The position numbers and the translations under genes were made by a program. The notes below the pieces were generated by a model. It worked only from the letters and a program-made list of their open reading frames with translations, made no database searches and was not told where the DNA came from. A stretch of 64,000 nt of DNA. Source: Azospirillaceae bacterium. Its GTDB lineage: Bacteria; Pseudomonadota; Alphaproteobacteria; Azospirillales; Azospirillaceae. The stretch is from positions 558,001 to 622,000 of the forward strand of contig JAPWJW010000001.1 of the NCBI GenBank assembly GCA_028283825.1, read 5' to 3'. Shown here in pieces: positions 8,555 to 54,297 of the stretch. Position 1 is the stretch's first letter. Each line of letters opens with the position of its first letter.

Positions 8555-8684
8555 CAGCGTCATGAGAGTTCGGCTCATGACGCTGTAGGCTGCGACCGCA
8601 GCCGCCGGAGCCTTTTGGGGAGTGTAGCGGACCGAAAGGCGAGGAAGCCCAAGCCGGCGGATGCCGGCGCCCGGCGATTGAGGG
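8555..8684 (+). repeat. Structured intergenic repeat, copy A
   Basis: First copy of a dispersed repeat. It starts with a perfect 12-bp hairpin (CAGCGTCATGAG at 8555-8566 with its complement at 8574-8585). The core then has helix P1 GGCTGC-GACC-GCAGCC (8588-8603), a long-range helix P2 (GCCTTT pairing with AAAGGC near 8610-8640) and P3 GCCGGC-GGAT-GCCGGC (8653-8668), ending in CGATTGAGGG. It begins 22 bases after the ribB stop. Confidence 0.85.
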
Positions 8685-8722
8685 AACCTCTGGCACATAC
8701 CGCTTGCCGGGAACGGGAATTA

Positions 8723-8761
8723 ATTGTACCAATCGGTAAAGTCAGTACCGATTGGTACAAT
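8723..8761. promoter_or_regulatory. Palindromic operator, probable TetR-family site
   Basis: A perfect 16-bp inverted repeat: ATTGTACCAATCGGTA (8723-8738), a 7-base spacer, and its exact complement at 8746-8761. Each arm itself holds a smaller palindrome (TACC-N4-GGTA), so it could bind two dimers. It ends 22 bases before the DUF1348 start, and a TetR regulator is encoded immediately after that gene, which makes autoregulation likely. Confidence 0.7.
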
Positions 8762-8783
8762 CCCTTTCCCTTGGAGGTGTCCC

Positions 8784-9260
8784 ATGTCGCAATCGACCGC
8801 CCGCCCACCCTTGCCGCCCTTCACCCTTGAAACCGCCATCCAGAAGGTGCGCGCGGCGGAGGATGGCTGGAACAGCCGCGATCCCGCCAAGGTGGCGCTG
8901 GCCTATACGGTGGACAGCCGCTGGCGCAACCGGGCGGAATTCGTCACCGGCCGGGCGGACATCCAGGCCTTCCTGGCCCGCAAATGGGCGCGGGAACTGG
9001 ACTACCGCCTGATCAAGGAAATCTGGGCGCATGACGGCAACCGCATCGCCGTGCGCTTCGCCTACGAATACCGGGACGACAGCGGCACCTGGTTCCGCGC
9101 CTATGGTAATGAGAACTGGGAATTCGAGGGCGACGGCCTGATGCGCGCCCGCCACGCCAGCATCAACGAACACCCCATCGCCGAAGGGGACCGCAAGTTC
9201 CATTGGCCGCTGGGCCGCCGCCCCGACGACCATCCCGGTCTCAGCGATCTGGGCCTCTAA
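8784..9260 (+). CDS. DUF1348 family protein, SnoaL/NTF2-like fold
   Basis: A 158-residue nuclear transport factor 2-like protein of the DUF1348 type. The N-terminal [17 protein letters not shown], the central [13 protein letters not shown] and [17 protein letters not shown], and [20 protein letters not shown] are typical of the family; members are small, cytoplasmic and of uncertain enzymatic function. The ATG at 8784 is set by a strong GGAGGT at 8773-8778, and an earlier in-frame TTG lies inside the operator and is rejected. The TetR gene follows after 4 bases, so these form a two-gene regulated unit. Confidence 0.88.
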
Positions 9261-9264
9261 CCCC

Positions 9265-9813
9265 ATGGCGCGCAGCGTCGCCGACCGCCAGGACGTCATC
9301 CCCGTCCTGGCGGAAGTCTTCCGTGAAAATGGGTACGAGGGCACCAGCCTGTCGGCCATCACCCAGCGCACCGGCCTGGGCAAGGGCAGCCTCTACAACT
9401 TCTTCCCCGGCGGGAAGGATGAGATGGCCGCCGCCGTGCTGGCGCATATCGACGGCTGGTTCCAGACCCACGTTTTTCGGCCCTTGGCGGAAGGGGGCGA
9501 CGACGCCGTGGACGCTATGTTCCGCGCCGTGGACGACTATTTCCGTTCCGGCCGGCGGGTATGCGTGGTCGGGGTGTTCGCCCTGGGTGACGCCCGTGAC
9601 CGCTTCACCACTCAGGTCCACGGCTATTTCGCGGCGTGGGTGATGGCATTGACAGCGGCGCTGGCGCGCGCCGGCAGGGATGCCGACGTAGCGCAGTCCC
9701 AGGCGGAAGAGGTGGTGGCCGGCATCCAGGGTGCTCTGGTCCTGGCCCGGGCCCTGGACGACACCGGAGTCTTCACCCGCACGCTGGCCCGACTGCGCCA
9801 CGGTCTGGCCTGA
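9265..9813 (+). CDS. TetR/AcrR family transcriptional regulator
   Basis: A 182-residue repressor. The N-terminal helix-turn-helix is clear: VFRENGYEGTSLSAITQRTG followed by KGSLYNFFPGGKDEM, the usual TetR recognition helix. The C-terminal ligand-binding part resembles the LmrA/YxaF-like subgroup. It starts 4 bases after the DUF1348 gene and is probably translated with it. The large palindrome at 8723-8761 is the likely operator. Its stop codon directly abuts the stop of the convergent RgpF-like gene, with no intergenic base. Confidence 0.92.
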   Translation: MARSVADRQDVIPVLAEVFRENGYEGTSLSAITQRTGLGKGSLYNFFPGGKDEMAAAVLAHIDGWFQTHVFRPLAEGGDDAVDAMFRAVDDYFRSGRRVCVVGVFALGDARDRFTTQVHGYFAAWVMALTAALARAGRDADVAQSQAEEVVAGIQGALVLARALDDTGVFTRTLARLRHGLA

Positions 9814-10782
9814 TCAGGCGGCGCGCACCCGGCGCGCGGCGGCGAAGACCGGTACGCCCAGGACGCGGACGTAGCACAGCCACCAGCGTAAATCCCGGCT
9901 GTACTTCGTACGCACGTACGTGGCCGGCAGGGCGGTCAGGCGCGTACGCTCCTGCCGCCAGGGCAGGTCGTGGCAGGGGGGATGGGCGCTGCCGCACAGG
10001 CGGGCCACGTGCGCCTCGATCATGGCCACGGGATAGTACTGGGACAGCTGGTCCAGCCGGTCGCGCAGGCGGGCCACCCGTTCCTGGTTGTGGTGGAACA
10101 CCGCCACCTTCACCAGGGGCATCTGGTGCGCCTCCAGATACTCATCGAAATAGACGTCGGAATAGAGTTCCTTGGCCACGAAGGCGTGGGGCAGGTAGCG
10201 GCCGGGCTTGAACCCCAGGGCCATCAGCCGCTGGCTGAGGCCGATCTCATATTCGCGGCAGACGGCGGCCTTGCTGGGCTGGCGTGTCACCCCTGCCCAA
10301 AAGGCGGCGAAGTCGGCATGCGCCGTGACAGGCCGGCGGAACACCAGGAAATTGCTGGTCAGGTAACGGGTGTCGCCATCCACCAGGCCGTCGGTCAGGC
10401 CCCAGAAGTCGCAGTCGTCATCCGCCATTTTCTGGAAGACGGGCGCGAAGGGGAAGACGGGGCCGTAGCAGCTGTCGTTGGCGACCACGACCTCGTCATA
10501 CAGGGCCAGGTCATCGCCCAGCGCCCGGAAGGCGATCTGCCAACTGCCGAAATCATAGGCGCCGTGGCGGCCGGCGTGCACCAGTTCCGCCACATCGCCC
10601 AGCCGTTCCGCCTGCCCTTCCATCAGGGCGCCGTCGGACACGAACAGGATGCGCTCCGCCACCGAACGCAGGCCGCGCAGGTAATACAGAACGTGGTCGT
10701 CGACCTGGCCGTCGCGGTCGAAATGCGCGAACAGCACGACGCGGCGCGGGGTGGTCGAGAGGGGGGTATCGGTTCGTGTCAT
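9814..10782 (-). CDS. Rhamnan synthesis F (RgpF)-like glycan protein
   Basis: A 322-residue protein of the RgpF family, which acts in assembly of rhamnose-rich or related surface polysaccharides. Matching segments are VVLFAHFDRDGQVDDHVLYY, the acidic VVVANDSCYGPVFPF block, DFWGLTDG, and the later REYEIGLSQRL and KELYSDVYFDEYL. No signal peptide or membrane segment is seen, so it is probably cytoplasmic. It is the last of four minus-strand genes (13562 to 9814), 80 bases after the PseH-like acetyltransferase gene; a TTAACCAT motif lies in that gap at 10830-10837. Confidence 0.85.
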   Translation of the reverse strand: MTRTDTPLSTTPRRVVLFAHFDRDGQVDDHVLYYLRGLRSVAERILFVSDGALMEGQAERLGDVAELVHAGRHGAYDFGSWQIAFRALGDDLALYDEVVVANDSCYGPVFPFAPVFQKMADDDCDFWGLTDGLVDGDTRYLTSNFLVFRRPVTAHADFAAFWAGVTRQPSKAAVCREYEIGLSQRLMALGFKPGRYLPHAFVAKELYSDVYFDEYLEAHQMPLVKVAVFHHNQERVARLRDRLDQLSQYYPVAMIEAHVARLCGSAHPPCHDLPWRQERTRLTALPATYVRTKYSRDLRWWLCYVRVLGVPVFAAARRVRAA

Positions 10783-10862
10783 TGGGGCCGGGCCCTTAGG
10801 AACTGGTCATCTGTTCCTTTGCACGATTGTTAACCATCAATCCTGGCGCTGGCCACGGTTCT

Positions 10863-11426
10863 TTAGGCAGGGGGCCAGATGCGGCCGTCCCAGTCGGCGT
10901 ATTCCTTGAATTTCAGGCGCTTGGCCGCCCAGTCCGCCGCCGACATCTCAAACAGGTGGACATCGTATGCCTGCCCCCCCTTCACCGCATGGTCGCGCAA
11001 GACCCCGACGTGGCGATAGCCCAGCAGGGTCTGGCCGCGCAGCACGCGGTCGTTGTCGGCCATGATCTGGTTGACCACCTTGCGCAGGCTCAGGGCGTAA
11101 AAGACATGGTTCAGGGCGTGGGTGAAGTTCAGCGGCCCGGCCCCGGTGCGCCCCCGCCGGTCGGCCATGTAGGCGCCCAGGGTGGCGATGCCCCAGCCGG
11201 CGTGGGTGACGGTGATGGAGGCGTAGCCCACCGGCACCCCGTCCACCATCATGATGCGGTGGTGATAGTCGTCGCGGCCGTTGCTGCGCGCCAGCCAGGC
11301 GCGCTGCTTGTCGATGTCGTCCTCGACCTGGGTGAACAGGTGCTGGGCGATGTCGGGCCGCAGGCGCCAGTCCAGCAGCAGGCGGGCGTCATCCGGCGTG
11401 GGGATGCGGTAGCTGAGGCCGCTCAT
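10863..11426 (-). CDS. GNAT N-acetyltransferase, PseH-like
   Basis: A 187-residue GNAT acetyltransferase. The early LLLDWRLRPDIAQHLFTQ and KQRAWLA segments, and VDGVPVGYASI, follow the pattern of PseH, which acetylates the 4-amino group of UDP-4-amino-4,6-dideoxy-N-acetyl-beta-L-altrosamine before PseG acts. The acetyl-CoA loop is in the GAYMADRRGRTGAG region. The presence of pseB, pseC and pseG in the window supports this assignment, but a different amino-sugar acetyltransferase is possible. It lies 19 bases after the Rieske oxygenase gene in the same operon; a GGAG is about 10 bases before the ATG. Confidence 0.72.
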   Translation of the reverse strand: MSGLSYRIPTPDDARLLLDWRLRPDIAQHLFTQVEDDIDKQRAWLARSNGRDDYHHRIMMVDGVPVGYASITVTHAGWGIATLGAYMADRRGRTGAGPLNFTHALNHVFYALSLRKVVNQIMADNDRVLRGQTLLGYRHVGVLRDHAVKGGQAYDVHLFEMSAADWAAKRLKFKEYADWDGRIWPPA

Positions 11427-11445
11427 GCTGGGTTTTCTCCGGCGG

Positions 11446-12792
11446 TCAGTAGGGCGCGTCGGCCGGGCGGACCGGCTGGTCCAGGCCCAGGGCTTGGGCC
11501 CAGGCGTGGTGGAAATCGGCGATGCGGCGTTCGCGGCGGCCCAGGATGCCCGGCCCCGTGGCGGCGGCGCGCGCCTGCTGCACCCGTTCGCACAGGGGCT
11601 GGTCCTCCAGCACCACGGTGCGGGCGGATTGGGACAGCATGGTGGTCAGCGACCGGCGGAAGGCGGCGGTGGCCGGCCGGTCAGGCTGCGCCACCGGCAG
11701 GAAGGTGCGCCAGGACAGGCGGGTGCGGTCCACCGCCAGCGGGTCCAGGGTGTGGATGATGACCATGGCACCAAAGAAGCTGGCCACGTATAGGTCGGGG
11801 AAGACGAAACAATGGTCATAGCGCGGCTGGTCGTGCACCCGGCGCAAGGTAGCCTTGGCGTCGATGCGCCGCCACCAGTCGGCGGTGGTGTCGCTCATCA
11901 GCCAGCTGGAGCGGCTGTGCCGGCCGAACCGCTCGGTTTCCAGGTGGGTCTGCCAGTCGGGGTGGACGGCGGGGTGGATGGTGTCGGGATGGACGGTGGA
12001 ACCGTGGAAGTCGTCCATGGTGTTTTCCACCAGCGCCTTCCAGTTGGCGCCGAATTCCACCTGGTCCTGGGCCACCGGCTGGTCGCATTGGCCGGACAGC
12101 CGGGCCAGGTGATCCGCCACCGGGCCCAGGAAGGCCGCCAGCGACAGGCTGTCACCGCCGTCGGCGCGGGCGAACACCAGGTTACCGCAGGTATCCACGG
12201 TGAGGGGCCGCCCAGCCTCATCCCGGCCCGTCAGGTCGGGCGCCACGGTCAGGCTGGTGTCCAGCAGGGCGCGGGTGATGGGGCCGGCCTCAAGGTCCAG
12301 GCGCGTGCCGACGTAACGCCATTGGCGGCGGAAGGCGGCGATTTCGTCGGCCAGGCTCTGGGGTTCCGTGAACCAGCGGGCGGGCAGCAGTTCGCCGGTC
12401 TCGATCATTGCCGCCGGGTCGGCATGCACCCACACCCGGCCACCCTCCAGCCGCAGGCCCACGGGCGTCAGGGCCAGCCGGCGGCAGGCCTCACGGTCCA
12501 GCTGGAAATCGCTGTCGTTGAAGGGAATGCCCGTGGGCACGCCATCCGCGTCATAGACCCAGGCATGATAGGGACAGCGCAGCAGGCCCCGGCCGCTGGG
12601 CTGGTCCTGCATCAGGGCGTAACGGTGGGAACAGACGTTGCGGAAGGCCTTGGGCGTTCCCCGGAAATTCTGCACCACCACCGGGATGGCGGCGCCATCG
12701 GCGCCGGGAATATCCCCGGTCAGATAGTCGCCATGCTCCGCCACGGCCGAGGCCGGGCCCAGATTCACCCAAGGGGCGATGGGCGCGCTCAC
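11446..12792 (-). CDS. Rieske [2Fe-2S] aromatic-ring-hydroxylating-type oxygenase, alpha subunit
   Basis: A 448-residue Rieske non-heme iron oxygenase. The Rieske cluster ligands are CSH (about residue 51) and CPYH (about 72), spaced as usual. The mononuclear iron site is ENTMDDFHGSTVH (about residues 257-269), with the conserved Asp and two His. The start is GTG at 12792, overlapping the stop of the preceding SDR gene as GTGA, so translation is coupled; a longer reading frame upstream is only the shadow of the SDR gene. No ferredoxin or reductase gene is adjacent. The substrate is unknown; its sugar-gene context (PseH-like and RgpF-like genes) makes a glycan precursor possible. Confidence 0.88.
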   Translation of the reverse strand: MSAPIAPWVNLGPASAVAEHGDYLTGDIPGADGAAIPVVVQNFRGTPKAFRNVCSHRYALMQDQPSGRGLLRCPYHAWVYDADGVPTGIPFNDSDFQLDREACRRLALTPVGLRLEGGRVWVHADPAAMIETGELLPARWFTEPQSLADEIAAFRRQWRYVGTRLDLEAGPITRALLDTSLTVAPDLTGRDEAGRPLTVDTCGNLVFARADGGDSLSLAAFLGPVADHLARLSGQCDQPVAQDQVEFGANWKALVENTMDDFHGSTVHPDTIHPAVHPDWQTHLETERFGRHSRSSWLMSDTTADWWRRIDAKATLRRVHDQPRYDHCFVFPDLYVASFFGAMVIIHTLDPLAVDRTRLSWRTFLPVAQPDRPATAAFRRSLTTMLSQSARTVVLEDQPLCERVQQARAAATGPGILGRRERRIADFHHAWAQALGLDQPVRPADAPY

Positions 12793-13562
12793 GCCGTGCG
12801 CCCGCCATCGACCGTCAGCGCCGTGCCGGTGATCCAGCGGCCGGTGTCGGCCAGCAGATAGGCGATGGCGTGAGCGATGTCGTCGACATGGCCGAAGCCC
12901 AGGGGCTGCAGCCTTTCCAGATGATCGATCTGTTCCTGGCTCAGCTTTTCGAACCCGCGCTCGATCAGGTCGGTCATGACGATGCTGGGCACCACGCAAT
13001 TGACGCGGATGCCGTCGGGCAGCAGTTCCGCCGACAGGCCCTTGGTCGCCGCGATGATGCCGCCCTTGGCGGCGGCGTAGACGATGTTGGCGGGCGAGGC
13101 GGCGGTGGCGGCGGTGGAGGAGATGAACACCATGGCCGACCGCTCGGCCCGCACGCCCTTCTGCCGCAGGCCCTTGGCCAGGGCCAGGCAGGAACCCAGG
13201 TTCACCCGCATCACCTGGTCGAAGAAGTCCTGGGAAAAGATGCGGATGGGCCGCAGCGTCTGGATGCCGGCGCAATGCGCCACCCCGTGGAAGGGGCCGG
13301 ACAGGGCCGCCTGTTCCTTCATCCAGGCCGGAATGGCGTCCAGGTCGCCCATGTCGAAGGGGGCGACGCGGTGGCCCTGGCCCTCCAGCCGCGACAGGGT
13401 GTCGGCCAGCCGCCCCTCGTCCCGGCCGTTCAGCGTCACCCGGGCCCCCAGGCGTGACAGCATCACCGCCGTGGCCTGGCCGATGCCGGCCGAAGCGCCC
13501 GTCACCAGCAGGGACCGGCCCGCCAGGCTCATGGGGTTATGGATCGCGGGGGCGTCGGTCAT
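12789..13562 (-). CDS. Short-chain dehydrogenase/reductase (SDR)
   Basis: A 257-residue classical SDR oxidoreductase. Cofactor loop TGASAGIG, the HCAG motif, active site SST with YAAAK, and C-terminal ALTVDGG are all present. The ATG at 13562 is preferred over an upstream in-frame start because AGGAAG lies 7 bases ahead of it. It is the first gene of a minus-strand operon (SDR, Rieske oxygenase, GNAT, RgpF-like) and is divergent from the PadR regulator; the PadR palindrome at 13675-13699 sits between them and could control both directions. The partner oxygenase suggests the pair oxidises one substrate in two steps. Confidence 0.9.
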   Translation of the reverse strand: MTDAPAIHNPMSLAGRSLLVTGASAGIGQATAVMLSRLGARVTLNGRDEGRLADTLSRLEGQGHRVAPFDMGDLDAIPAWMKEQAALSGPFHGVAHCAGIQTLRPIRIFSQDFFDQVMRVNLGSCLALAKGLRQKGVRAERSAMVFISSTAATAASPANIVYAAAKGGIIAATKGLSAELLPDGIRVNCVVPSIVMTDLIERGFEKLSQEQIDHLERLQPLGFGHVDDIAHAIAYLLADTGRWITGTALTVDGGRTA

Positions 13563-13674
13563 GGGGGTGCTTCCTGAAAGGCCGTTGAGCCGACTATCCG
13601 GGGCCGGCCCGCCGCCCGTCAATGCGCCAGTGCAAATTTGTCGATGAGGGGGGATTGACGTGAGAGTGAGTCGA

Positions 13675-13699
13675 GATATATCTTACAACAAGATATATC
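13675..13699. promoter_or_regulatory. PadR operator palindrome
   Basis: A perfect 10-bp inverted repeat GATATATCTT / AAGATATATC with a 5-base spacer, strikingly AT-rich in this GC-rich DNA. It lies 31 bases before the PadR ATG and about 110 bases upstream of the divergent SDR start. PadR-family proteins commonly bind such dyads and repress their own gene. Confidence 0.75.
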
Positions 13700-13730
13700 G
13701 CGTAACAGACTAGATAGGACGAATAACGCT

Positions 13731-14357
13731 ATGCGTATCTTCAATCATCATCGCGGCGAAGGCCGCCGCCACGCCCGCGACCGCCGCGACGGCGATGGCT
13801 TCTGGGGTTCCTTCGGCGGTGGGGCCGGGGGCCGGGGCGAAGGCCGTTGGGGTTTCGGCGACCGCATGGAACGGGAAATGGGCCGCGGCCGGGGTGCGGC
13901 GCGCATCTTCGAGAACGGCGACCTGCGCTTCCTGTTCCTGGACCTGATCCGGGAAAAGCCCCGCTATGGCTATGAGATCATCAAGGCCATCGAGGAAAAG
14001 GTCGGCGGCGGCTACAGCCCCAGCCCCGGCGTGGTCTATCCCACCCTGACCCTGCTGGAGGAAATGGGCCACACCGTCGTCTCATTGGGCGAGGGCGGCA
14101 AGAAACTCTACACCCTCACCGACAGCGGTGCCGCCTTCCTGGAAGAGAATCGCCGCTTGCTGGACGCCATCAAGGCGCGGCTGGAAAAGATCAGCGCGTC
14201 GCGGGGGTGGGAGCCGCCGACCGCCGTGGTGCGCGCCCTGCATAACCTGAAGATGGCGGTGCACATGAAGCTGCGCGGCCAGACGCTGACGGAAGACCAG
14301 GCGCGGGCCATCGCCCAGGCCCTGGACAATGCCGCCCAGGCCATCGAACAGGCCTGA
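13731..14357 (+). CDS. PadR family regulator, YqjI-like
   Basis: A 208-residue PadR regulator. The winged helix spans about residues 62-130 (FLDLIREKPRYGYEIIKAIE, then SPSPGVVYPTLTLLEEMG), followed by a C-terminal helical dimerisation arm. The first 55 residues are Gly, Arg and His rich (HHRGEGRRHARD), like the metal-binding extension of E. coli YqjI, a nickel-responsive regulator of a ferric reductase; however there are few His and no Cys here, so metal sensing is only a possibility. It is probably autoregulated through the palindrome at 13675-13699. Confidence 0.88.
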   Translation: MRIFNHHRGEGRRHARDRRDGDGFWGSFGGGAGGRGEGRWGFGDRMEREMGRGRGAARIFENGDLRFLFLDLIREKPRYGYEIIKAIEEKVGGGYSPSPGVVYPTLTLLEEMGHTVVSLGEGGKKLYTLTDSGAAFLEENRRLLDAIKARLEKISASRGWEPPTAVVRALHNLKMAVHMKLRGQTLTEDQARAIAQALDNAAQAIEQA

Positions 14358-14376
14358 CCGATCGGGGGGACCCTCC

Positions 14377-14553
14377 ATGCCTCATCATGAACTGACCCGC
14401 AGCGACATCCGGGGCCGGCTGCTGGCCCTGTCCCGGACCAAGGCCCTGGGGGCCCGGGTATCCCATACCGACCTGGATGCGCCCCGGGATGTCCGTCAGG
14501 ACGCTCCGCGCCCGCCGTCCCGGCGTGAGCAGGATCAAGGTGGCAACCGTTAA
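14377..14553 (+). CDS. Small hypothetical protein
   Basis: A 58-residue reading frame starting at ATG 14377, 19 bases after the PadR gene, with a purine-rich GGGGGGA at 14364-14370 as a possible ribosome binding site. The product is strongly charged (MPHHELTRSDIRGRLLALSR at the N-terminus, then an Arg/Asp/Pro-rich tail) with no membrane segment. I do not recognise a family. The position and ribosome binding site suggest cotranscription with padR; it could also be a chance frame. Confidence 0.4.
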   Translation: MPHHELTRSDIRGRLLALSRTKALGARVSHTDLDAPRDVRQDAPRPPSRREQDQGGNR

Positions 14554-14631
14554 GGTGGTGCACCGTTGACGCGGGGTGGCGCCAACCCCATCCTGGGTTG
14601 CTGAATCAATCCCAGGGCTCGGTCTCCCACC

Positions 14632-17551: not shown

Positions 17552-17639
17552 ACACCCCGCCTCCCTGGATGGCTAAGTCGTCGCCACGATACACCATCGC
17601 GGCCGCTTGCCAACCCGGGGCCTGGCCAAGGGCTACGCC

Positions 17640-17793
17640 AGCGGCGTGAGGTTCGCATGCCGCTATAGGCTGCGACCGCAGCCGCCGGAGCTTTCCGGGG
17701 AACGAAGTGGACTGGAAAGCGAGGACGAGCCCAGCCAGCGGATGCTGGCGCCCGGCGTTTGAGGGGGCATTTGATCACGCAAGATCAAATGCC
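17640..17793 (+). repeat. Structured intergenic repeat, copy B
   Basis: Second copy of the dispersed repeat. The 5' hairpin is AGCGGCGTG (17640-17648) with CATGCCGCT (17656-17664). Core helices are P1 GGCTGC-GACC-GCAGCC (from 17668), P2 GCTTTCC pairing with GGAAAGC, and P3 GCCAGC-GGAT-GCTGGC (17734-17749). A perfect 11-bp 3' hairpin follows (GGCATTTGATC at 17766-17776 with its complement at 17783-17793). It fills most of the gap between the histidine kinase and the next gene. Confidence 0.87.
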
Positions 17794-17802
17794 GCGCCTA
17801 CA

Positions 17803-18330: not shown

Positions 18331-18369
18331 GTCGGGGTTCCCAGAGGTCACATCCAGGAAAGACGATAG

Positions 18370-18384: not shown

Positions 18385-18547
18385 ATCGCAAGCCGACATG
18401 GATCAAATCGACCGGAGTTTCCGCCACCCCTTTTGGCTGAGGCGCGCGGGATTTGACGGAACGTTAACCTATTCCCCCGATGGTGGGCGTAATGGCCGCA
18501 ACTAGACCGGGGGCGGGGACGCCATCCGGGACCGGAGGATATGGACG

Positions 18548-22047: not shown

Positions 22048-24174
22048 ATGAAACACACGTTGCGCGCCTTGCTGCTGTCCCCCGGCCTGTTGCTGGGGGC
22101 GGTTCCCGCCTTTGCCGAAACCCCCGTCCCCCCGGCCAACGGCATCCCCGACGATCCCCGGTCGTGGATGGAGGATATGGCCAATCCCCAGGCGCTGGAC
22201 TGGGCCAAGGCGGAAACCGACCGTTCCACCGCCGTGCTGCAGGCCGACCCGCGTTATCCCACCTTGCTGGCGGAGGCGACGGCCATCGCCGAGTCGCGTG
22301 ATCGGGTTCCGGGCGTCAGTTTCCGGGGCGATGCCGTCTATAATTTCTGGCAGGACGCGACCCACGTGCAGGGCATCTGGCGCACCACCACGCTGGACAG
22401 CTTCCGCAAAACCGAACCGGCTTGGCAGGCCGTGCTGGACGTGGACGCCCTGGCCAAGGCCGAGGGCGTGAAATGGGTGTTCAAGGGGACCGACTGTGAT
22501 GAGGAAACCCACCGCCACTGCATGATCCAGCTGTCGGATGGCGGCGAGGACGCGGTCATCCTGCGGGAATTCGACCTGAAGACCCGCTCCTTCGTCCACG
22601 GCGGCTTCACCCTGCCGCGCGGCAAGCAGTCGGTCACCTGGGCCGACCCCGACACCCTGCTGGTGGCCCGCGAGTGGGGCCCCGACACCCTGACGCCGTC
22701 GGGCTATCCCTACATCGTGAAGGCGCTGAAGCGCGGTCAGCCACTGGACCAGGCGCGTGATGTCTTCCGGGGCGAGAAGACGGACATGAGCGTGGGCGCG
22801 GAAACCTTCCGTGACGCCCAGGGCCGCCAGGCGGTGGTCATCGTCCGCAACCGCAGCTTCTTCGAGGCGGAACAATATCTGGTGGCGGGCGGTGATGTGA
22901 AACGCCTGGCGCTGCCCCTGAAATCCCGCATCCATGGCCTGCACGATGGCCAGATGATCGTGGAGGTGAAGGAAGACTGGGATGCCGGTGGCACCCATGT
23001 CACCCAGGGTAGCGTCGTGGCCCTGGACCTGGCGGCGCTGGCGGCCGATCCCGATCATCCCCACCCGGCGGTGGTCTATGCCCCGACACCGCGGGAGGGC
23101 CTGACCGATATCGACTTCACCCGCCATCACCTGCTGCTGGGCCTGACCGACAATGTGAAGGGTCGCGTGTACGTGGCCGATCGCAATGCCGACGGCACCT
23201 GGCGCCGCGCCCAGCTGCAGCTGCCGGATAACGCCGCCATCAGCATCACGGGTGCCGACCGCGACCATGACCGCATCTTCGTCACCGTTGCGGGTTTCCT
23301 GGATCCGCTGACCCTGTCCCTGGTCGACACCAACACCGGTGCGGTGGAAAAGCTGAAATCCACCCCGCCGCAGTTCGACGCGTCCAAGGCGGTGGTGGAA
23401 CAGCGCGAGGCCGTGTCCAGCGACGGCACGCGCGTGCCCTATTTCGTGGTGCGGCCGCGCGACTTGGCCTTCGACGGGTCCACGCCCACCCTGCTGTACG
23501 CATACGGCGGATTCGAAGTCCCGATGCTGCCGCGCTACCTGGGCGCCACCGGCAAGCTGTGGCTGGAACGGGGCGGCGCTTACGTCCTGGCCAACATCCG
23601 CGGCGGCGGCGAATTCGGCCCCGCCTGGCATGAGGCCGGGCTGAAGACCAAGCGCCAGGTCATCTATGACGACTTCGCCGCCGTCGCCCGCGACCTGATC
23701 GCCACCAAGCTGACCAGCACGCGGCGCTTAGGGATTGAGGGCGGTTCCAACGGCGGTCTGCTGATGGGGGTGGAGTTCACCCAGCATCCGGAGCTGTGGC
23801 GTGCCGTCGTCATCCAGGTGCCCTTGCTGGACATGCTGCGGTTCCCCGTCATCGGCGCCGGTGCCTCATGGGTGGGGGAATATGGCGATCCGTCCGTACC
23901 GGAGGAGCGCGCCTTCCTGGCCGGCATCTCGCCCTACAATAATATCAAGGCAGGGGTGAGTTATCCGGAACCCTTGTTCGTGACTTCCGCCAAGGATGAC
24001 CGGGTCAATCCCGGCCACGCCCGCAAAATGGCGGCCAAGATGAAGGACATGGGCCTACCCTACCTCTATTACGAAAATACCGAGGGCGGTCACGCGGCCA
24101 GCGCCAACCTGAAGGAAACCGCCAGGCGGCAAGCGCTGGAGTTCACCTACCTTTTACGGAAACTCAAGGATTAG
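22048..24174 (+). CDS. Prolyl oligopeptidase family serine peptidase (S9), secreted
   Basis: A 708-residue S9A peptidase. The ATG at 22048 starts a good signal peptide (MKHTLRALLLSPGLLLGAVP, cleavage near AFA-E), so the enzyme is periplasmic or exported. A seven-bladed propeller precedes the alpha/beta hydrolase domain with nucleophile GGSNGG (about residue 567), Asp in DDRVNPGHA (about 650) and His in EGGHAA (about 681). GGAEYV-type family features such as ANIRGGGEFGPAWH are present. It resembles bacterial prolyl endopeptidases that cleave short Pro-containing peptides. A second, broken homologue follows directly. Confidence 0.93.
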   Translation: MKHTLRALLLSPGLLLGAVPAFAETPVPPANGIPDDPRSWMEDMANPQALDWAKAETDRSTAVLQADPRYPTLLAEATAIAESRDRVPGVSFRGDAVYNFWQDATHVQGIWRTTTLDSFRKTEPAWQAVLDVDALAKAEGVKWVFKGTDCDEETHRHCMIQLSDGGEDAVILREFDLKTRSFVHGGFTLPRGKQSVTWADPDTLLVAREWGPDTLTPSGYPYIVKALKRGQPLDQARDVFRGEKTDMSVGAETFRDAQGRQAVVIVRNRSFFEAEQYLVAGGDVKRLALPLKSRIHGLHDGQMIVEVKEDWDAGGTHVTQGSVVALDLAALAADPDHPHPAVVYAPTPREGLTDIDFTRHHLLLGLTDNVKGRVYVADRNADGTWRRAQLQLPDNAAISITGADRDHDRIFVTVAGFLDPLTLSLVDTNTGAVEKLKSTPPQFDASKAVVEQREAVSSDGTRVPYFVVRPRDLAFDGSTPTLLYAYGGFEVPMLPRYLGATGKLWLERGGAYVLANIRGGGEFGPAWHEAGLKTKRQVIYDDFAAVARDLIATKLTSTRRLGIEGGSNGGLLMGVEFTQHPELWRAVVIQVPLLDMLRFPVIGAGASWVGEYGDPSVPEERAFLAGISPYNNIKAGVSYPEPLFVTSAKDDRVNPGHARKMAAKMKDMGLPYLYYENTEGGHAASANLKETARRQALEFTYLLRKLKD

Positions 24175-24213: not shown

Positions 24214-24326
24214 CCACCGTTCCGGGTTGCCGGCAGGTGCCGGCCCCGGATCGGGTTCCTGATCCGCCCGAGGCCCCGCGTCCCATGCCGTCCGTTTCGT
24301 TTCTCGCATCCGCTCGTTCCAAGGCT

Positions 24327-24453
24327 CCCTCAAGCGCCGGGCGCCAGCATCCGCTGGCTTGGCTGATCCTCGCTTTCCAGTCCGCCTTCGGCTCCCCGGA
24401 AAGCTCCGGCGGCCCCGGTCGGGGCCTAGGGTGTCACGGTTCAAAATACCGTG
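24327..24453 (-). repeat. Structured intergenic repeat, copy C (inverted)
   Basis: Third copy, on the minus strand. On that strand the 5' hairpin is CACGGT-ATTTTGA-ACCGTG (24453-24435), P1 is GGCCCC-GACC-GGGGCC (a different stem from copies A and B, with pairing kept), P2 is GCTTTCC with GGAAAGC, and P3 is GCCAGC-GGAT-GCTGGC. It ends just before the start of the broken prolyl oligopeptidase, which therefore lacks a recognisable ribosome binding site. Confidence 0.87.
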
Positions 24454-26615: not shown

Positions 26616-26778
26616 AGCGGCACGGGGTTCTGACTCGTGCCGCTGTAGGCTGCGACGGCAGCCGCCGGAAGTTTCCGGGGAACGAAGTGGATTGGAAACT
26701 GAGGATCAGCCAAGGGCGCGGATGCGCCCGCCCGGCGCCTGAGGGGCGGCATATGAACGGTCACGTTCAAGTGCCGCT
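26616..26778 (+). repeat. Structured intergenic repeat, copy D
   Basis: Fourth copy, beginning 5 bases after the stop of the broken peptidase. The 5' hairpin is AGCGGCACG (26616-26624) with CGTGCCGCT (26636-26644). P1 is GGCTGC-GACG-GCAGCC, P2 is AGTTTCC pairing with GGAAACT, and P3 is GGGCGC-GGAT-GCGCCC (26714-26729). The 3' hairpin joins GCGGCA..TGAAC (26746-26758) with GTTCA..TGCCGC (26765-26777). The outermost AGCGGCAC and GTGCCGCT also form terminal inverted repeats. Confidence 0.88.
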
Positions 26779-44350: not shown

Positions 44351-45373
<1,023 letters not shown>

Positions 45374-45694
45374 GACAGCCCCTGCTTCCGAGGGATAGGT
45401 GCCCCCGGCCTGAAAGATCTTGGAGATCGCCCTCATACTATCGCCCCCCGCGCGGGCCGCGTAGCCAAACCGTAGCCTTGTAGCCTTTTCCCCAGCTTAC
45501 CCATGGCGCCTGCCGTGCCTTAAGGTTGGGCTCATGAATTCGTGGTCGGACTATAGCGCCAACAGGGCTGCAAGTATCAACAATCTGTGGGATTTATGTA
45601 ATCACTACACAACTGCTACTCTTGCGCGGCAGTGCGGGCCGGACCGCGGGGCGGCCCCCGCAACCCTCCGGCAAAAGCCCTTAACAGGTGGTGA
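45374..45694. promoter_or_regulatory. Divergent intergenic region between pseB and the TPR-glycosyltransferase gene
   Basis: A 321-base region between two divergent glycan genes, more AT-rich around 45540-45620 than its surroundings, so it probably holds both promoters. It contains a short frame from 45534 that runs into the next gene and is not believed. No clear operator or riboswitch was found. Confidence 0.4.
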
Positions 45695-48600: not shown

Positions 48601-49381
48601 CTTGGCCGACTGGGCGCCGCTGTTGCGCTTGGCCGGTCTCCACCTCGTCACCCTGCAATACGATGCGGTGGTGGCTGAGACCGAGATCGCGGAGGTCGAG
48701 GCGCGGTTGGGCGTCCGCATCCATCGCTGGCCCGATCTGGATTTGCGCGACGACCTGGATGGCCTGGCGGCGCTGATGTCCCGGCTGGATCTGGTCGTCT
48801 CCGCCGGGACGGCGGTGTCGGAGATGGCCGGGGCCTTGGGCGTATCCTGCTGGCGGCTGGGCCCGACGGAGGAATGGACGCGCCTGGGCACCGCCGTGCG
48901 GCCCTGGTTCCCGGCCCAACGCTCATTCCATCCCCCGCGCGGTATGGCCATCGCCCAGGTCCTGCCCGATCTGGCGGCGCAATTGGCCCTGCTGGCGGAC
49001 ACGCGCCCGTCCCTTCCTGAGACGTCGCCGGATAGCGATGCCTTGTATCGGCAGGGGATGGCATCCCGCGACGCGGGGCAAATGGATCAAGCTGCGGTCT
49101 TGCTGGGCCAGGCGGCGGATGGCGGGCATGAGAACGCCCTGGCGGCCTTGGCCGGCCTGCTGCGCCGGGAAGAGCGCTGGGCCGAGGCCGCGGAGCGTTA
49201 TCGCCAGCTGCTGGGGCGGCAGCCCGGCAATGCCGACGCCCTGTCCGGCCTGGGGCTGGTCCTGCTGGGCCAGGGGCAGGGGGCGGACGCCCTGCGTTGC
49301 CACGACCGCGCCGTGCGGATGGCGCCGCGATCGTGCGCCCCTGCACGCCAACCGGGGCCTGACGCTGGCGGCGCTGGGTGA
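45695..49381 (+). CDS. Giant TPR-glycosyltransferase (FlmG-like), first part: modules 1-2 and start of module 3
   Basis: A 1228-residue frame holding two complete modules of TPR repeats followed by a GT-B-like glycosyltransferase domain. Each glycosyltransferase begins GW..Y..RF then WREQGLGDE (46520 and 48223) and ends at a conserved LGTPVRPWYPAMRIF-type segment (about 47280 and 48930). TPR units such as NPGLGLARFNLGLAHL-like segments and ALNLCGVACHQQGR surround them. Caulobacter FlmG, which attaches pseudaminic acid to flagellin, has the same TPR plus glycosyltransferase layout. The frame is interrupted at 49328 by one extra base; the meaningful protein continues in the next feature. Confidence 0.85.
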   Translation: MVRDRSSEVGVGKGGGGIGPLLNQAMDRHRVGDLAGAEGLYRRVLALDPMQADALNLCGVACHQQGRSDEGRVLLERALALRPNDVATLENLGLLLVERFLPDEAAPLLRRAVRLAPRSVAAWMSLAMAHRQAGDMANAEAAYRTLLSLAPDNVGAMLNFSDVLRLTGRAPAAETLMRRALALQPNSVQARVNLGLALQWQGNLSSAQVELSRAVDLAPGDPVAHWNRALVRLALGDLAGGWPDYKYRFGSGTVNARRDPRGPVWGGDALRGRRLMIWREQGLGDEFMFSPLYAPALRAALSGGGSVVFDVEPRLVGLMSRYVARVAAGLPGLAEVRAERLNAADFDVHLPAGDLPGLFAATLSGFAEGGGNGGGNAGWLTADPPAVAVWRQRLADLGPALKVGVCWTSGLQAHERGGNYLGLAQWAGLLAVPGVVWIDLQYNDVTAERAATAALGLPVPHRFADLDMRNDIEGVTALMSALDLVITAPTSVGEMAAAMGVPTWRVSPRGDWSMLGTPVRPWYPAMRIFSGDLAHALGAARQTLINLADFDIEIRTITPPVRLAAIPEPTPAPTRPARLPTLVEAYDLMTAGRAADAVAAFDALLQWGDLAPTARGQALHLLGLARYQTGDGVGAVDAIGDALALLAPGQAAMPANNLGNILRHLGRLDEAEAAYRRAIAADPALVAAASNLGALLRDKGDLPAAEAMLTDALRREPDRAETLVNLSGVLTARGRWTEAEAMARRAVVLDPDMALAHANLGTALVAQGRLAAAEPCFTAALACDPGLGLARFNLGLAHLVRGDLGEGWRGYAERFSVRAGASPALPGPVWRGQDLAGRSLLVRREQGLGDELLFAGLYEDLRHRVGRLAIECDPRLVRLFLRAFPDAAIVPAGTPLPATDAAIWAGDLPGLLRPTLADFSRTPVASLTADAGLADGWEGRLAALGPGLKVGLCWRSGLMVEERRGLYPPLADWAPLLRLAGLHLVTLQYDAVVAETEIAEVEARLGVRIHRWPDLDLRDDLDGLAALMSRLDLVVSAGTAVSEMAGALGVSCWRLGPTEEWTRLGTAVRPWFPAQRSFHPPRGMAIAQVLPDLAAQLALLADTRPSLPETSPDSDALYRQGMASRDAGQMDQAAVLLGQAADGGHENALAALAGLLRREERWAEAAERYRQLLGRQPGNADALSGLGLVLLGQGQGADALRCHDRAVRMAPRSCAPARQPGPDAGGAG

Positions 49382-52300
49382 CAAGGCCGGGGCGGCCTCG
49401 GCGCATCGGCGGGCCGTCGTCGCCGATCCCGGCTGGGCGGGCGGATGGGTGAACCTGGGCGTGGCCCTGGCGGAGATGGAACAGGTAGCCGAGGCGGCGG
49501 ACGCCTTCGGCCACGCCTTGACGCTGGAACCCGGCCTGCCCGCCGCCCATATCGGTCTGGCCAACCTCGCCCTGCTGCAACGCCGGCCATCGACGGCCTT
49601 GTCGCACCTGCGGTCGGTTCTGGCGGTCCAGCCGGACAATGCCGACGCCCACCTGAACCTGGGCATGGCCCTGGCCGACCTGCGCCGCCTGCCCGAGGCC
49701 ATGGACCAGTACCGGCATGCCCTGACCTTGCGTCCCGGCTGGGGCCTGGCCCGGTGGAACCTGGCGCTGATCGCGCTGGAAATCGGTGATCTGGACACCG
49801 GTTGGCGGTTTTATCCCGGCCGCTTCGCCACCGAGTCCGTGCCGCCCCGGCCCGACCTGGTCCTGCCCGCCTGGGCGGGTGAAAACGTACGTGGCCGGAC
49901 GCTGCTGGTCTGGCGGGAACAGGGCTTGGGCGACGAGATCCTGTTCGCCAGTTGCCTGCCCGACCTGGTGCGCTGGCTGGCGGCGCGCGGTGCCCATCGC
50001 CTGGTGGTCGAACTGGATGCGCGCCTGGTCGGGCTGGTCGCGCGCGCGCTGGTCCCCCTGATTCTGAATGGGCCGGGCTCCCCGGACTTGGTCGTGGAGG
50101 TACGGGCACCCACCGATACGCCGCGTGATGCCGACTGCCATGTGCCGCTGGGGGGATTGCCGGCCCTGCTGCGCCCCCGGCTGTCGGACTTTCCGACGGA
50201 CGGCGCGCCCTGGCTGGTGCCTGATCCCGATCTGGCGGCGCGCTGGCGGGGGCGGTTGGATGCCCTGGGTCCCGGCCTGAAGGTCGGTTTGTGCTGGCGC
50301 AGCGGCTTGCGCACCCTGGCGCGCGAGGGGCTGTATCTGGCCCTGGCCGATCTGGTGCCACTGCTGTCGCTTGCGGGCGTGCACTTCATCGTCTTGCAGT
50401 ACGACGCGCGGGAAGGCGATGCCCAGGCGGAAATCGCCGAGGTCGCGGCCGTGGCCGGCGTCACCCTGCACCTGTGGGACGACCTGGATCTGAGACGGGA
50501 CCAGGAAGGGGTGGCGGCCCTGATGGCCGGCCTGGACCTGGTGATATCCGCCGGCACGGCGGTGGGTGAGTTGTCGGCGGCCTTGGGCGTGCCTACCTGG
50601 CGTTTCCAGGGCAATCCCAACTGGGCCAACCTGGGTGCCGGCCAGCGACCCTGGTTCCCGGCCCAACGGTTATGGCTGACAGCGGGCGGCCCGCTGGCGC
50701 CCGTGGTGCCGGCCATGCGCGCGGCGCTGACGGCGATGGCGGCCGATGCCCGCCCGGTACCGGCGGCCGTCGTCCCCGCCACGCTGGAGGCCGGCATGGC
50801 GGCACACCGCGCCGGCGATTTGGCGGCGGCCGAGGCGATTTACCAAAAGGTCCTGGCGGCGGCGCCGGATGACGTTGATGGCTTGCACCTGTTGGGGCTG
50901 GCCCGGGTGCAGCGCGGGCAGCCCGAGGATGGCGTGCTTTTGCTGCACCGGGCGGTGCGGTTGGATCCGACTTTCGCGCAGGCCCACAACAGCCTGGGCA
51001 GCGCCCTGCGCATTCTGGGCGATGGGCCGGGGGCGCTGGCCGCCTTCACCCGTGCCGTCGAGCTGGCGCCCGATTATGCCGAGGCCTGGTCCAACCTGGG
51101 GGGAACCCTGGTGGAACAGCGGCGGTGGAAAGACGGCCTCGCGGCGGCCGACCGGGCTCTGGCGCTGCGCCCCGGCTATGCCAAGGCGCTGGCCGACCGT
51201 GCCCAGGCGTTGGTCAACATGGGTGATGCCGCCGGTGCCCTCGCCTCCGCGCGGCAGGCGGTGGTGGCGGAGGAAACGCCCTTCACCCGGACCAACCTGG
51301 GCATGGTGCTGGTGGCGGTCGAATTGCTGGATGAGGCACGTTCGCAGCACGAACGGGCTCTGGTCCTGGACCCCACCTTCGCCGAGGCCGCCAACAATCT
51401 GGGCTTGGCCTGGATGGCCGATGACAAACCCGGTGCGCTTGATGGCGCCCGCGCCGCGTTTGATCGTGCCCTGGCCATCCGGCCCGATTTCCCGTCCACC
51501 CGCTACAACGCGGCCCTGCTGGACCTGGCGGACGGCCGTCTGGCCGCCGGCTGGGCGAAGTACGACAGCCGTTTCGCCGCGGGGCAGGCGAAACCGGACC
51601 GGCGGTTCCAGATCCCCCAGTGGGACGGCCGCGACTTGACCGGCCGCACCCTGCTGGTCTGGCGCGAGCAGGGTTTGGGGGACGAACTGATGTTCGCCAG
51701 CGTGTACCCCGATCTGATCAAGGCGCATCCCGGTGCCCGGTTTGTGCTGGAATGCGATCCCCGATTGGCCGGCTTCTTCACCCGGGCCTTCGTCGGTGGG
51801 GCTGATGGCCGGGTGACCCTGGCCGATGTGGCTGATCCGGTGGCGGCGGGTGCCGATTTGCACATCCCGGCCGGTGGCCTGCCGGGCATGCTGCGACAGG
51901 GGGCCGCCCGTTTCCAGGGCGCCCCGTACCTGACGCCGGACCCCGCCCGTGCGGGCTTCTGGCGGGACCGACTGGATACGCTGGGCCCCGGCCTGCGGGT
52001 GGGTCTATGCTGGCAAAGCATGGTGCGCGATGTCTCGCGCGACAGCGCCTATACCCAGCTGGCCGATTGGGCGCCGCTGGTGCGCCTGCCGGGCATCATC
52101 CCCGTGCTGCTGCAATATGGCGACGTGAAGGATGAGGTAGGGGAGGTCGAGGCCCGGTTGGGCATCACCGTGCACCGTTGGGCCGATACCGACCTGCGCC
52201 TGGACCTGGAGGCTGTCGGCGCCCTGATGTGCGGCCTGGATCTGGTGATCACGGCCCCCACCTCCGTCGGCGAAATGGCGGGTGCCCTGGGCGTGCCGGT

Positions 52301-54224
52301 CTGGCGGGTGGGCACGCGGCGGGACTGGTCCATGTTGGGCACGGCCGTGCGGCCCTGGTTCACCAGCATGCGCATCTTTTCCCAGCCCCATGGCAGCCGG
52401 CGGGCGCGGTCCGTGATCGGGGCGGTGGTGGGGACGCTGAAGGCCCTGGGCGCGGTGCCGGCCGCGGCTTCACCATCGGCGTCCGACGTGTCCCGCGAAG
52501 GGATCCCTGCTGCCGCCCAAGATGGGGAAAGCTTGCTGGCGGATGCCGCGGCCCGGCACCAGGGGGGCGACGCGGCGGGCGCCTTGCCGCTGTACCGCGC
52601 CGTTCTGGACCGCCAGCCGGACCAGCCGGTGGCCCTGCACCTCATGGGCCTGGCGCTCAGCCAACTGGGCCGGCCGGCGGCGGGCCTGCCCTTCCTGCAG
52701 CGCGCTGTGGGTGTGGCCCCCGACTATGCCGTGGCCCAGTCCAACCTGGGCAACGTCCTCCAATCCCTGGGCCGTCCGGCGGAGGCGGAGGCGCACTACC
52801 GCCAGGCCCTGGCGCATGGGCCGGATCGGGCGGATGTGCTGACCAACCTGGGCAACGCCTTGCTGGCGCAGGGGCGGCCGGACGCGGCGGTGGCGTGCCA
52901 CGAGCAGGCCCTGGTGCTGGATCCCGCCCTGGCGGCGGCTGCCTCCAACCTGGGGTCGGCGCTGCTGGCGCTGGATCGGCCGGGGGATGCCGCCCTGGCT
53001 TTCCGTCGCGCGCTGGGTGCGGCCGGTTTGCCCGGGGACGGAATTGATGCCCTCACGGGGATGGGTGACGCCTTGCGCCTGCTGGGCGATGCCGAGGCCG
53101 GCCTTGCCTGGCAGGATCGGGCCCTGGCCGTGGCGCCGAACGAGGCGATGGTCTGGAACAACCGGGGCCGCTGCCTGGCCGACCTGGGGCGCACGGACGC
53201 GGCGGCGGAAAGTTACGGCCGGGCCGTGGCGCTGGACCCCAACCTGGCCACGGCGCATTTCAACCGCAGCCTGCTGGACTTGGCGGCCGGCCGGTTGGAT
53301 GCCGGTTGGCAGGGCTATGCCTGGCGCTTCGCGGCGGAGGGCAAGCAACCGGTGCCCCGCTTCGATCGGCCGGCCTGGCGCGGCGAAAGTTTGGGCGGCC
53401 GCCGCCTGCGGGTATGGCGCGAACAGGGGCTGGGGGACGAACTGCTGTTCGCGGCCCTGTATCCCGCCTTGCAGGCGCGGGCCGAACGTGAGGGAGCCCG
53501 CGAACTGCTGGTCGATTGCGACCCACGCCTGCTGCCGCTGTTCCAGCGCAGTTTCCCAGCCATCCGCTTCCTGCCCCGGGTACCCGGCCAGGCATCGGCC
53601 GGGCTGGAGGCCGCGGAGGCGGATTTCGTGGCGGCGGCGGGTGATCTGGCCGGCCTGCTGGGTGGTGGCCTGACCGATTTCGCGCCAGCCCCCCTGGTGC
53701 CCGACCCTGAGCGCGTGGATCATTGGCGCGGCCGCCTGGCGGCCCTGTCGCCGGGGCCGGCCCTCACCCTGGGCATTGGCTGGCGGTCGGGCCAACTGGG
53801 CACCGAACGGTCGCGCGTCTATTCCACCCTGTCGGACTGGCGCGGGCTGCTGGCGCTGCCCGGCCTGCGCGTGGTCAGCCTGCACTACCAGCCGGCGGAG
53901 GAGGAGATCGCGGCCTTCCACCGTGAAACCGGCCTGACCATCCACCGCTTCGCCGATGCCGACCTGTTCAACGACCTGGAAACTGCGGCCGCCCTGACGG
54001 CCGCCTGCGACCTGGTGATCACGCCGGCCACCTCCACCGGCGAACTGGCGGGTGCCGTCGGCACGCCTTGCTGGCGTTTCGCGCCGCGCGACTGGACCAC
54101 GTTGGGCACCGCTGTCCGGCCCTGGTTCCCGTCGCAGCGGCTGTACGCCTTGGACCGGCCGGGCGGCGCGGGCGGGGCGCTGTCCGCCATGGTCGCCGAC
54201 CTGCGCCGCCTGCTGCGGGCGTGA
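49329..54224 (+). CDS. Giant TPR-glycosyltransferase (FlmG-like), continuation: modules 3-5
   Basis: Continuation in another frame of the gene starting at 45695. From GAT at 49329 (DRAPLHANRGLTLAALGD) it gives the rest of module 3 TPRs and three glycosyltransferase domains with WREQGLGDE at about 49913, 51662 and 53416 and ends (LG..VRPWF) near 50676, 52395 and 54150. About 1630 residues are encoded. Reading upstream of 49329 in this frame is a shadow of the first part, so no own start is convincing. The whole intended product would be about 2,840 residues with five catalytic modules. Nothing else in the window has this repeat count. Confidence 0.85.
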   Translation, partial: DRAPLHANRGLTLAALGDKAGAASAHRRAVVADPGWAGGWVNLGVALAEMEQVAEAADAFGHALTLEPGLPAAHIGLANLALLQRRPSTALSHLRSVLAVQPDNADAHLNLGMALADLRRLPEAMDQYRHALTLRPGWGLARWNLALIALEIGDLDTGWRFYPGRFATESVPPRPDLVLPAWAGENVRGRTLLVWREQGLGDEILFASCLPDLVRWLAARGAHRLVVELDARLVGLVARALVPLILNGPGSPDLVVEVRAPTDTPRDADCHVPLGGLPALLRPRLSDFPTDGAPWLVPDPDLAARWRGRLDALGPGLKVGLCWRSGLRTLAREGLYLALADLVPLLSLAGVHFIVLQYDAREGDAQAEIAEVAAVAGVTLHLWDDLDLRRDQEGVAALMAGLDLVISAGTAVGELSAALGVPTWRFQGNPNWANLGAGQRPWFPAQRLWLTAGGPLAPVVPAMRAALTAMAADARPVPAAVVPATLEAGMAAHRAGDLAAAEAIYQKVLAAAPDDVDGLHLLGLARVQRGQPEDGVLLLHRAVRLDPTFAQAHNSLGSALRILGDGPGALAAFTRAVELAPDYAEAWSNLGGTLVEQRRWKDGLAAADRALALRPGYAKALADRAQALVNMGDAAGALASARQAVVAEETPFTRTNLGMVLVAVELLDEARSQHERALVLDPTFAEAANNLGLAWMADDKPGALDGARAAFDRALAIRPDFPSTRYNAALLDLADGRLAAGWAKYDSRFAAGQAKPDRRFQIPQWDGRDLTGRTLLVWREQGLGDELMFASVYPDLIKAHPGARFVLECDPRLAGFFTRAFVGGADGRVTLADVADPVAAGADLHIPAGGLPGMLRQGAARFQGAPYLTPDPARAGFWRDRLDTLGPGLRVGLCWQSMVRDVSRDSAYTQLADWAPLVRLPGIIPVLLQYGDVKDEVGEVEARLGITVHRWADTDLRLDLEAVGALMCGLDLVITAPTSVGEMAGALGVPVWRVGTRRDWSMLGTAVRPWFTSMRIFSQPHGSRRARSVIGAVVGTLKALGAVPAAASPSASDVSREGIPAAAQDGESLLADAAARHQGGDAAGALPLYRAVLDRQPDQPVALHLMGLALSQLGRPAAGLPFLQRAVGVAPDYAVAQSNLGNVLQSLGRPAEAEAHYRQALAHGPDRADVLTNLGNALLAQGRPDAAVACHEQALVLDPALAAAASNLGSALLALDRPGDAALAFRRALGAAGLPGDGIDALTGMGDALRLLGDAEAGLAWQDRALAVAPNEAMVWNNRGRCLADLGRTDAAAESYGRAVALDPNLATAHFNRSLLDLAAGRLDAGWQGYAWRFAAEGKQPVPRFDRPAWRGESLGGRRLRVWREQGLGDELLFAALYPALQARAEREGARELLVDCDPRLLPLFQRSFPAIRFLPRVPGQASAGLEAAEADFVAAAGDLAGLLGGGLTDFAPAPLVPDPERVDHWRGRLAALSPGPALTLGIGWRSGQLGTERSRVYSTLSDWRGLLALPGLRVVSLHYQPAEEEIAAFHRETGLTIHRFADADLFNDLETAAALTAACDLVITPATSTGELAGAVGTPCWRFAPRDWTTLGTAVRPWFPSQRLYALDRPGGAGGALSAMVADLRRLLRA

Positions 54225-54228
54225 GGCC

Positions 54229-54297
54229 GGCGGCATTTATGCCGCCATAGGCCCCGGCCGAGCATAGCCAAAGGGCGGATGCCCGCCGGCGCCTGAG
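54229..54297 (+). repeat. Structured intergenic repeat, copy E (short)
   Basis: Shortened fifth copy, starting 5 bases after the giant gene. It keeps a perfect 8-bp 5' hairpin (GGCGGCAT-TT-ATGCCGCC, 54229-54246), a reduced P1 (GGCC-CC-GGCC), and P3 with the invariant loop (GGGC-GGAT-GCCC, 54273-54284) followed by GGCGCCTGAGG. The P2 region is missing. Confidence 0.75.

Follow-up and report, generated by a model that had tools for sequence, protein, structure and literature searches.

The 64-kb stretch of an Azospirillaceae genome analyzed here (the window) contains, between its genes, several copies of a sequence that folds into hairpins around a loop GGAT. This raises the question of what the sequence is, and of whether its fold acts as RNA or as DNA. 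An earlier note had listed five intergenic copies in the window; all of them were present at the positions given, and the stems that it quoted were confirmed by reading and by alignment. The copies consist of the following features, with cores scored by the model R1 and palindromes read from the sequence.

8555-8585, + strand: left palindrome of copy 1 (arms 8555-8566 and 8574-8585, 12/12 complementary)
8586-8685, + strand: core of copy 1 (R1, 112.9 bits)
17640-17665, + strand: left palindrome of copy 2
17666-17766, + strand: core of copy 2 (R1, 122.2 bits)
17766-17793, + strand: right palindrome of copy 2 (GGCATTTGATC..GATCAAATGCC)
24326-24428, - strand: core of copy 3, inverted (R1, 116.3 bits)
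24429-24453, - strand: left palindrome of copy 3, imperfect, judged by eye
26616-26645, + strand: left palindrome of copy 4
26646-26746, + strand: core of copy 4 (R1, 117.8 bits)
26746-26777, + strand: right palindrome of copy 4 (arms 26746-26759 and 26764-26777, 86% complementary)
54229-54297, + strand: copy 5, internally deleted (left palindrome, P1/P2 remnant, GGAT hairpin and tail, without P3)

A complete core of about 100 nt was found in four of the five copies (R1, 112.9 to 122.2 bits). Copy 5, in which the long hairpin is absent, gave no R1 match at E<=0.1, and no right palindrome was evident by reading in copy 1. The window also contains a long, operator-like inverted repeat around TACCGATTGGTA (8712-8772), which lies directly before the ORF at 8784-9260.

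A seed search with copy 2 as query gave 334 candidates in the 7.16-Mb, five-contig genome, and 40/40 of those scored were matches. The window and 20 stretches of 19.9 kb around these matches (462,020 bases) were then treated as one set, in which the density of copies is biased because the stretches were chosen around matches. This biased set yielded 71 profile matches, of which 61 at E<1e-15 were kept and ten weaker ones dropped. The best 58 of the 61 copies, all from one genome, form alignment A2.

The core reads, in order, TAG, P1, a helix P2 that encloses P3 and P4, the segment CGCCCGGCG, two nucleotides NN and TGAGG. The P1 hairpin has a loop GACC, GACT or similar, P3 consists of 7 pairs plus a small inner helix, P4 carries the GGAT loop, and a segment GAGGA..GCCAAG lies between P3 and P4 (+ orientation). 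In A2, five helices were counted, core length was 98-103 nt, and the loops and linkers were near-constant across the aligned copies. The pairing and covariation that the earlier note had described for its P1, P2 and P3 were upheld, its P2 and P3 being P3 and P4 in the present naming; the closing helix GCCGG/CCGGC (our P2) is an addition that it had not listed. Its further claim, that variable hairpins flank each copy, held for the left side, and for the right side in part of the copies only. Among the 61 copies, a stem of at least 7 pairs abutted TAGG on the left in 50, compared with 15.3 expected by shuffling; on the right, a fold below -12 kcal/mol was present in 36/61 (11 expected) and a TTTGA..TCAAA hairpin in 23/61. 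GTAG precedes P1 in at least 48 of the 61 copies, and its G can pair inside the left palindrome. A second form of the core, which scores weakly, has a GAGTGAGCACCGCAGGGCG-like segment in place of P3. Subfamily B (L135-L139, L141, L153 and others) has other forms of P1 and P3, with GGAG in several copies; it was found at main-form orthologous sites as well.

The earlier note had proposed a statistical test of covariation, and by this test pairing exceeded expectation, with a covariation score in A2 of 0.423 compared with 0.136 (sd 0.008) after shuffling and at most 0.069 when partner columns were slid by 1-3. Compensatory change across copies was likewise confirmed: 98.1% of the 1504 stem cells were paired, 15 of 26 pairs had changed on both sides, and there were 211 cells with both-sided changes against 55.7 in shuffled data. 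P2 shows no double changes and contributes nothing to the covariation. Mutual information, computed on a larger collection of 113 model-fitted matches (111 distinct), was 0.667 bits across paired columns, compared with 0.108 within one arm, 0.026 between helices and 0.024 in shuffled data. Judged by stem haplotype, P1 appears independent of P3 (p=0.10) and P3 of P4 (p=0.055), and P1 slightly linked with P4 (p=0.009).

An even sample of the genome (20 evenly spaced stretches of 20 kb, 400 kb in all) contained 19 strong matches (E<1e-8) and a further three that were weaker (E<=0.1). This corresponds to about 340 strong copies per genome, a lower bound because the second, GAGTGAGCACCGCAGGGCG-bearing form scores weakly; a whole-genome model search returned at least 150 matches. 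Copies lie preferentially at gene 3' ends. With genes called by a home-made caller, weak matches counted and gaps of at least 100 nt considered, copies in the even sample occupied 11/24 convergent, 10/84 tandem and 0/43 divergent gaps (Fisher tests: convergent versus tandem, p=0.0007; convergent versus divergent, p=2e-6), and one weak match overlapped a called gene. In the biased set, all 61 copies were intergenic, with 35 in convergent, 22 in tandem and 4 in divergent gaps; 9 of the 22 in tandem gaps were on the gene strand, and many copies began or finished a few bases from a stop codon. The orientation bias with GC skew was weak (72/118 listed matches, p=0.02, one contig only). Conventional hairpin-plus-T terminators adjoin some copies (L024, L026).

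Relatives of the repeat were found well beyond this genome. In a family sample of 79 genomes, 27 had at least one match; all seven genomes of the genus, own included, had at least 51 each, and the others were 11/11 genomes of g12, 3/5 of g5 and six of g11. In g12, g5 and g11 the relative usually measures 74-81 nt; its P1 loop, GCCAAG, GGAT loop and tail are those of the repeat. An exact pattern with four P4 pairs left free detected at least 120 stretches in genome contigs and 24 in viral contigs; AAG, CGGATG, CGCCCGGCG and TGAGG were fixed in this pattern, so that their conservation in the resulting set is no evidence. Among the matches listed were Nitrospirillum, Niveispirillum, Azospirillum, Oleisolibacter, Telmatospirillum, Magnetospirillum and Novispirillum, also Roseomonas, Falsiroseomonas, Roseococcus and Rhodovarius, and also Sphingorhabdus, Aquisediminimonas and uncultured Sphingomonadaceae. 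Relatives occur in Rhodospirillales, Acetobacteraceae and sphingomonads, and the repeat extends through several orders of Alphaproteobacteria. All four free P4 pairs were standard in 158 of the 174 distinct exact matches listed (shuffled mean 21.8, highest 36), GCC, which was free in the pattern, stood before AAG in 163/174, and at least two upstream hairpins were present in 122/174, compared with 38 after shuffling. The loci around these listed matches, which were selected around matches and include some Nitrospirillum, comprised 100 tandem, 45 convergent and 3 divergent positions and 10 overlapping a called gene. Inverted pairs whose starts are separated by 166-212 nt numbered 17 among the 218 relaxed matches listed, and the ten pairs shown in full end outwards in CCTCA..TGAGG. 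Head-to-tail arrays, in which the core recurs about every 108 nt, were seen at L339, L354 and L355 (one viral contig) and at G023:C20 near 22291-22692, and at L343 and L345 inverted core pairs sit amid phage capsid and tail genes and related ones. A blastn search with copy 2 against collections of plasmids and phages gave no match; the tool may miss near records. Many further copies were thus found both in the genome and in its relatives, where the earlier note had suggested looking. Since further copies exist and pairing is above expectation, neither of the two outcomes that it had named as counting against its reading was found.

The element moves, as its presence and orientation differ between species. 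Three regions were compared with those of six congeners (84-89% identical), absence being defined as no profile match at E<=0.001 and long gaps being read in part. Ten of the 12 complete copies inside these regions were comparable, the other two having no comparable flank, and eight of the ten were absent from every congener with pairable flanking genes (1 to 6 congeners each). The copy L022:9952 was absent in five of six congeners, the sixth having a 1.4-kb gap with a weak copy on the other strand, and L022:8381 was common to five congeners, with a remnant in the sixth. At the site of one copy, only 7 nt separate the genes in five of six congeners. No target-site duplication was readable from the empty sites, which are too diverged. 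Orthologous places in G014 and G029, genomes that are 92-96% and 92-95% identical, respectively, in the three regions, were located for 16 of 17 copies of the genome G020. A core in the same orientation was present at 12/16 of these places in G014 and at 6/16 in G029. At two of the 16 sites, the same gap held a core in the opposite orientation (L168 in G014, L170 in G029). The remaining 3 places in G014 and 9 in G029 were empty, deleted, under the score limit or, in the case of L180 in G029, not alignable.

Stems also changed in place. Flanks differed by 1.0-9.7% across 24 pairwise comparisons of cores in the same place and orientation, for which unpaired positions were counted without eight gappy columns. 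Seven comparisons showed no stem change and five were intermediate. In the other 12, 4-7 of 21-26 pairs were altered on both sides and 0-3 on one, with flanks 2.0-9.7% different; a subfamily-B core (L182 in G029), whose P3 alignment is questionable, enters into two of these 12. At L172, the P1 and P3 stems differ among the three species, and P4 differs also in G020, with flanks 4-5% different. Stepwise compensation is unlikely to have produced multi-stem change at this speed; exchange between copies or repeated insertion in the same place would be needed. We favor exchange because L172 in G029 and in G014 has a common left palindrome and different cores; stem alleles have probably been swapped between copies.

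What form, then, does the fold take? The earlier note had left this as RNA or single-stranded DNA, and the scarcity of G-U pairs points more to DNA. In alignment A3 (own genome), 2856 cells comprised 2752 Watson-Crick, 59 G-U, 14 A-C and 31 other combinations, with 27 of the 59 G-U cells at a single pair, the P3 tip. For the free P4 pairs elsewhere, the 696 cells from the matches listed comprised 668 Watson-Crick, 4 G-U, 4 A-C and 20 other, compared with 55 G-U in 659 pairs of 29 predicted tRNAs from the same material, a control in which some predictions may be false and allowed pairs alone are marked. Such rarity of G-U leans towards DNA hairpins, or towards correction of one arm by the other. 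In the opposite direction, G-U outside the P3 tip pair exceeds A-C in A3 by 32 to 14 (p=0.011), an excess in the own genome that points towards RNA or one folded strand; G-U pairing has been taken as a sign of REP transcription (PMC3733652). Rfam gave no family match for the repeat. In the window it returned the FMN riboswitch alone (RF00050, 103 bits, 7532-7697, upstream of the ORF at 7846-8532), and for copy 2 at E<=5 it returned two matches, both far under the gathering score. A known Rfam RNA was accordingly ruled out, as no match for the repeat reached the gathering score. The suggestion that the GGA loop is a CsrA-type site found no support, since PF02599 was detected in 0/20 genomes (own plus 19 relatives) and in 3/14 control genomes.

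These data allow the rival explanations to be weighed. The repeat could be an RNA in 3' UTRs, acting as a two-way terminator, a protector of transcript ends or a guard between convergent genes, with its fold kept by host selection. This we consider unlikely. Its position at gene 3' ends suits such a role: almost half of the convergent gaps sampled contain it, and many copies begin or finish only a few bases from a stop codon. The G-U excess in the own genome also fits, as does the small difference among species between unswapped common cores, although these had been picked out for their lack of stem change. However, most comparable copies are missing from the same gene ends in congeners, 9 of 22 on the gene strand amounts to no strand preference, G-U is no commoner than A-C in P4 elsewhere and far rarer than in the predicted tRNAs, and ordinary terminators already stand beside some copies. 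A covariation that is mutational, in which template switching corrects the arms of imperfect palindromes without selection for the fold, would agree with the scarcity of one-sided intermediates, the many G-C to C-G flips and the even G-U and A-C counts of P4 elsewhere, but it explains neither the near-constant loops and linkers, nor the multi-stem exchange at L172 between little-diverged flanks, nor mobility, and we regard it as very improbable.

The remaining rival concerns the moving enzyme. The Y1 transposase (PF01797; RAYT/IS200) was not detected in the own genome or in any of the seven congeneric genomes, own included (0/7); positive controls were detected, and PF01797 was present in 21/79 genomes of the family sample. 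On this sample, a recognizable RAYT/IS200 mobilizer was rejected for the genus. The repeat might instead be an ordinary MITE moved at TA by an IS630-type (DDE) transposase, with the core as a passenger, an account that we find doubtful. In its favor, several full-length copies read CCAGCGGC..GCCRCTGG with TA on either side, the right-end pattern with at most 3 mismatches gave 54 + 62 matches on the two strands compared with 1 + 0 for a reversed control, and relatives in other genera end in ATACC..GGTAT. The own genome has 12 DDE_3 (IS630-type) matches, 10 above the cut-off, and contains two IS630 elements, one in six (L154-L159) and one in three (L160-L162) nearly identical copies. The ends of the three-copy element, ATACCA/TGGTAT, are common with the repeat, but these are only six letters and the second element has different ends. 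Moreover, the right palindrome is missing from many copies, the ends of inverted pairs elsewhere are CCTCA..TGAGG, a TA duplication is not readable from such diverged empty sites, and the core covariation is left unexplained. From these terminal letters, an IS630-type transposase is a possible candidate for the full-length copies ending in ATACC..GGTAT, a lead rather than proof. A search for an autonomous partner covered seven candidate intervals between inverted cores (L339, L343, L345). Five of the nine different ORFs there were scanned and comprised two phage capsid proteins, a tail completion protein, a DUF6127 protein and one without a family, with no transposase among them; the scan left out L343:5415-5633, L343:8274-9221, L345:7595-8002 and L345:10852-11160.

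Mobility and the keeping of shape are established by these data. The explanation that we prefer, and to which we give an even chance, is a new family of short, non-coding, mobile multi-hairpin repeats of REP/MITE-like kind that are folded as DNA and whose alleles are shuffled by recombination. The working form would be a Watson-Crick hairpin in single-stranded or extruded DNA; a trans-acting enzyme would recognize its shape together with the fixed letters of loops and linkers; insertion or survival would be favored immediately after stop codons; and recombination between copies would swap stem alleles. A bolder version, which we hold only tentatively, is an ancient, Alphaproteobacteria-wide element whose folded single DNA strand is read by shape and moved by an as yet unrecognized kind of enzyme, with stems exchanged as modules between copies, so that several stems of an orthologous site can change together, and with loops and linkers fixed. 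If the preferred explanation is true, a widespread, high-copy family of structured mobile repeats exists without the transposase that lies behind REPs. Hundreds of natural variants in one genome that keep the shape make the requirements of the recognizer readable and testable, and stem modules change between sister species faster than the flanks. The repeat also serves as a warning that strong covariation by itself is no proof of RNA.

No description of the repeat itself was found in the literature searched, with most subscription journals outside that search. The earlier note had likened it to dispersed mobile structured intergenic repeats of the REP/MITE kind, a view borne out by its many copies, by pairing above expectation and by presence that differs among congeners. 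Like REPs and REPINs (PMC3733652), it is high in copy number, intergenic, located mainly in convergent or unidirectional gaps, and composed of hairpins and inverted pairs. REPs have an unpaired GTAG or CGTC tag at one end of the palindrome, and the GTAG-like sequence at the foot of the first hairpin of the repeat, with its G able to pair, may be a counterpart; GTAG and CGTC are also the superfamilies of REP/REPIN elements and RAYT transposases (PMC3733652). Compensatory changes have been reported for REPINs (PMC3116915). The repeat is thus REP-like in copy number, extragenic position and preference for gene 3' ends, the last of which proves little because REPs with other mechanisms likewise favor gene 3' ends (PMC3733652). 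Unlike a REP, which is a single hairpin of 20-40 bp, it has a core that spans about 100 nt, comprises four or five helices and contains GCCAAG, GGAT and CGCCCGGCG..TGAGG as fixed elements, and neither the own genome nor the six congeners have a Y1 transposase. It cannot be counted as a REP, because core size and the absent Y1 transposase set it apart.

Correia and RUP elements are MITEs of the IS630 type. The repeat is similarly short and non-coding, has TA-flanked palindromic ends in full-length copies and resides in a genome with IS630 transposases, but its ends vary, one of them is absent from many copies, and the fold of its core is kept by compensation. ERIC elements, like the repeat, are structured and intergenic, with dozens of copies or more and no known transposase. 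Integron attC sites are folded single-strand sites with integrase core motifs. Rhizobial RIME/ABC repeats are likewise described as structured and intergenic, with dozens of copies or more and no known transposase (PMC2573895). The comparison with ERIC, RIME/ABC and Correia is one of description rather than of sequence. In its behavior, the repeat is nearest to REPs/REPINs and MITEs.
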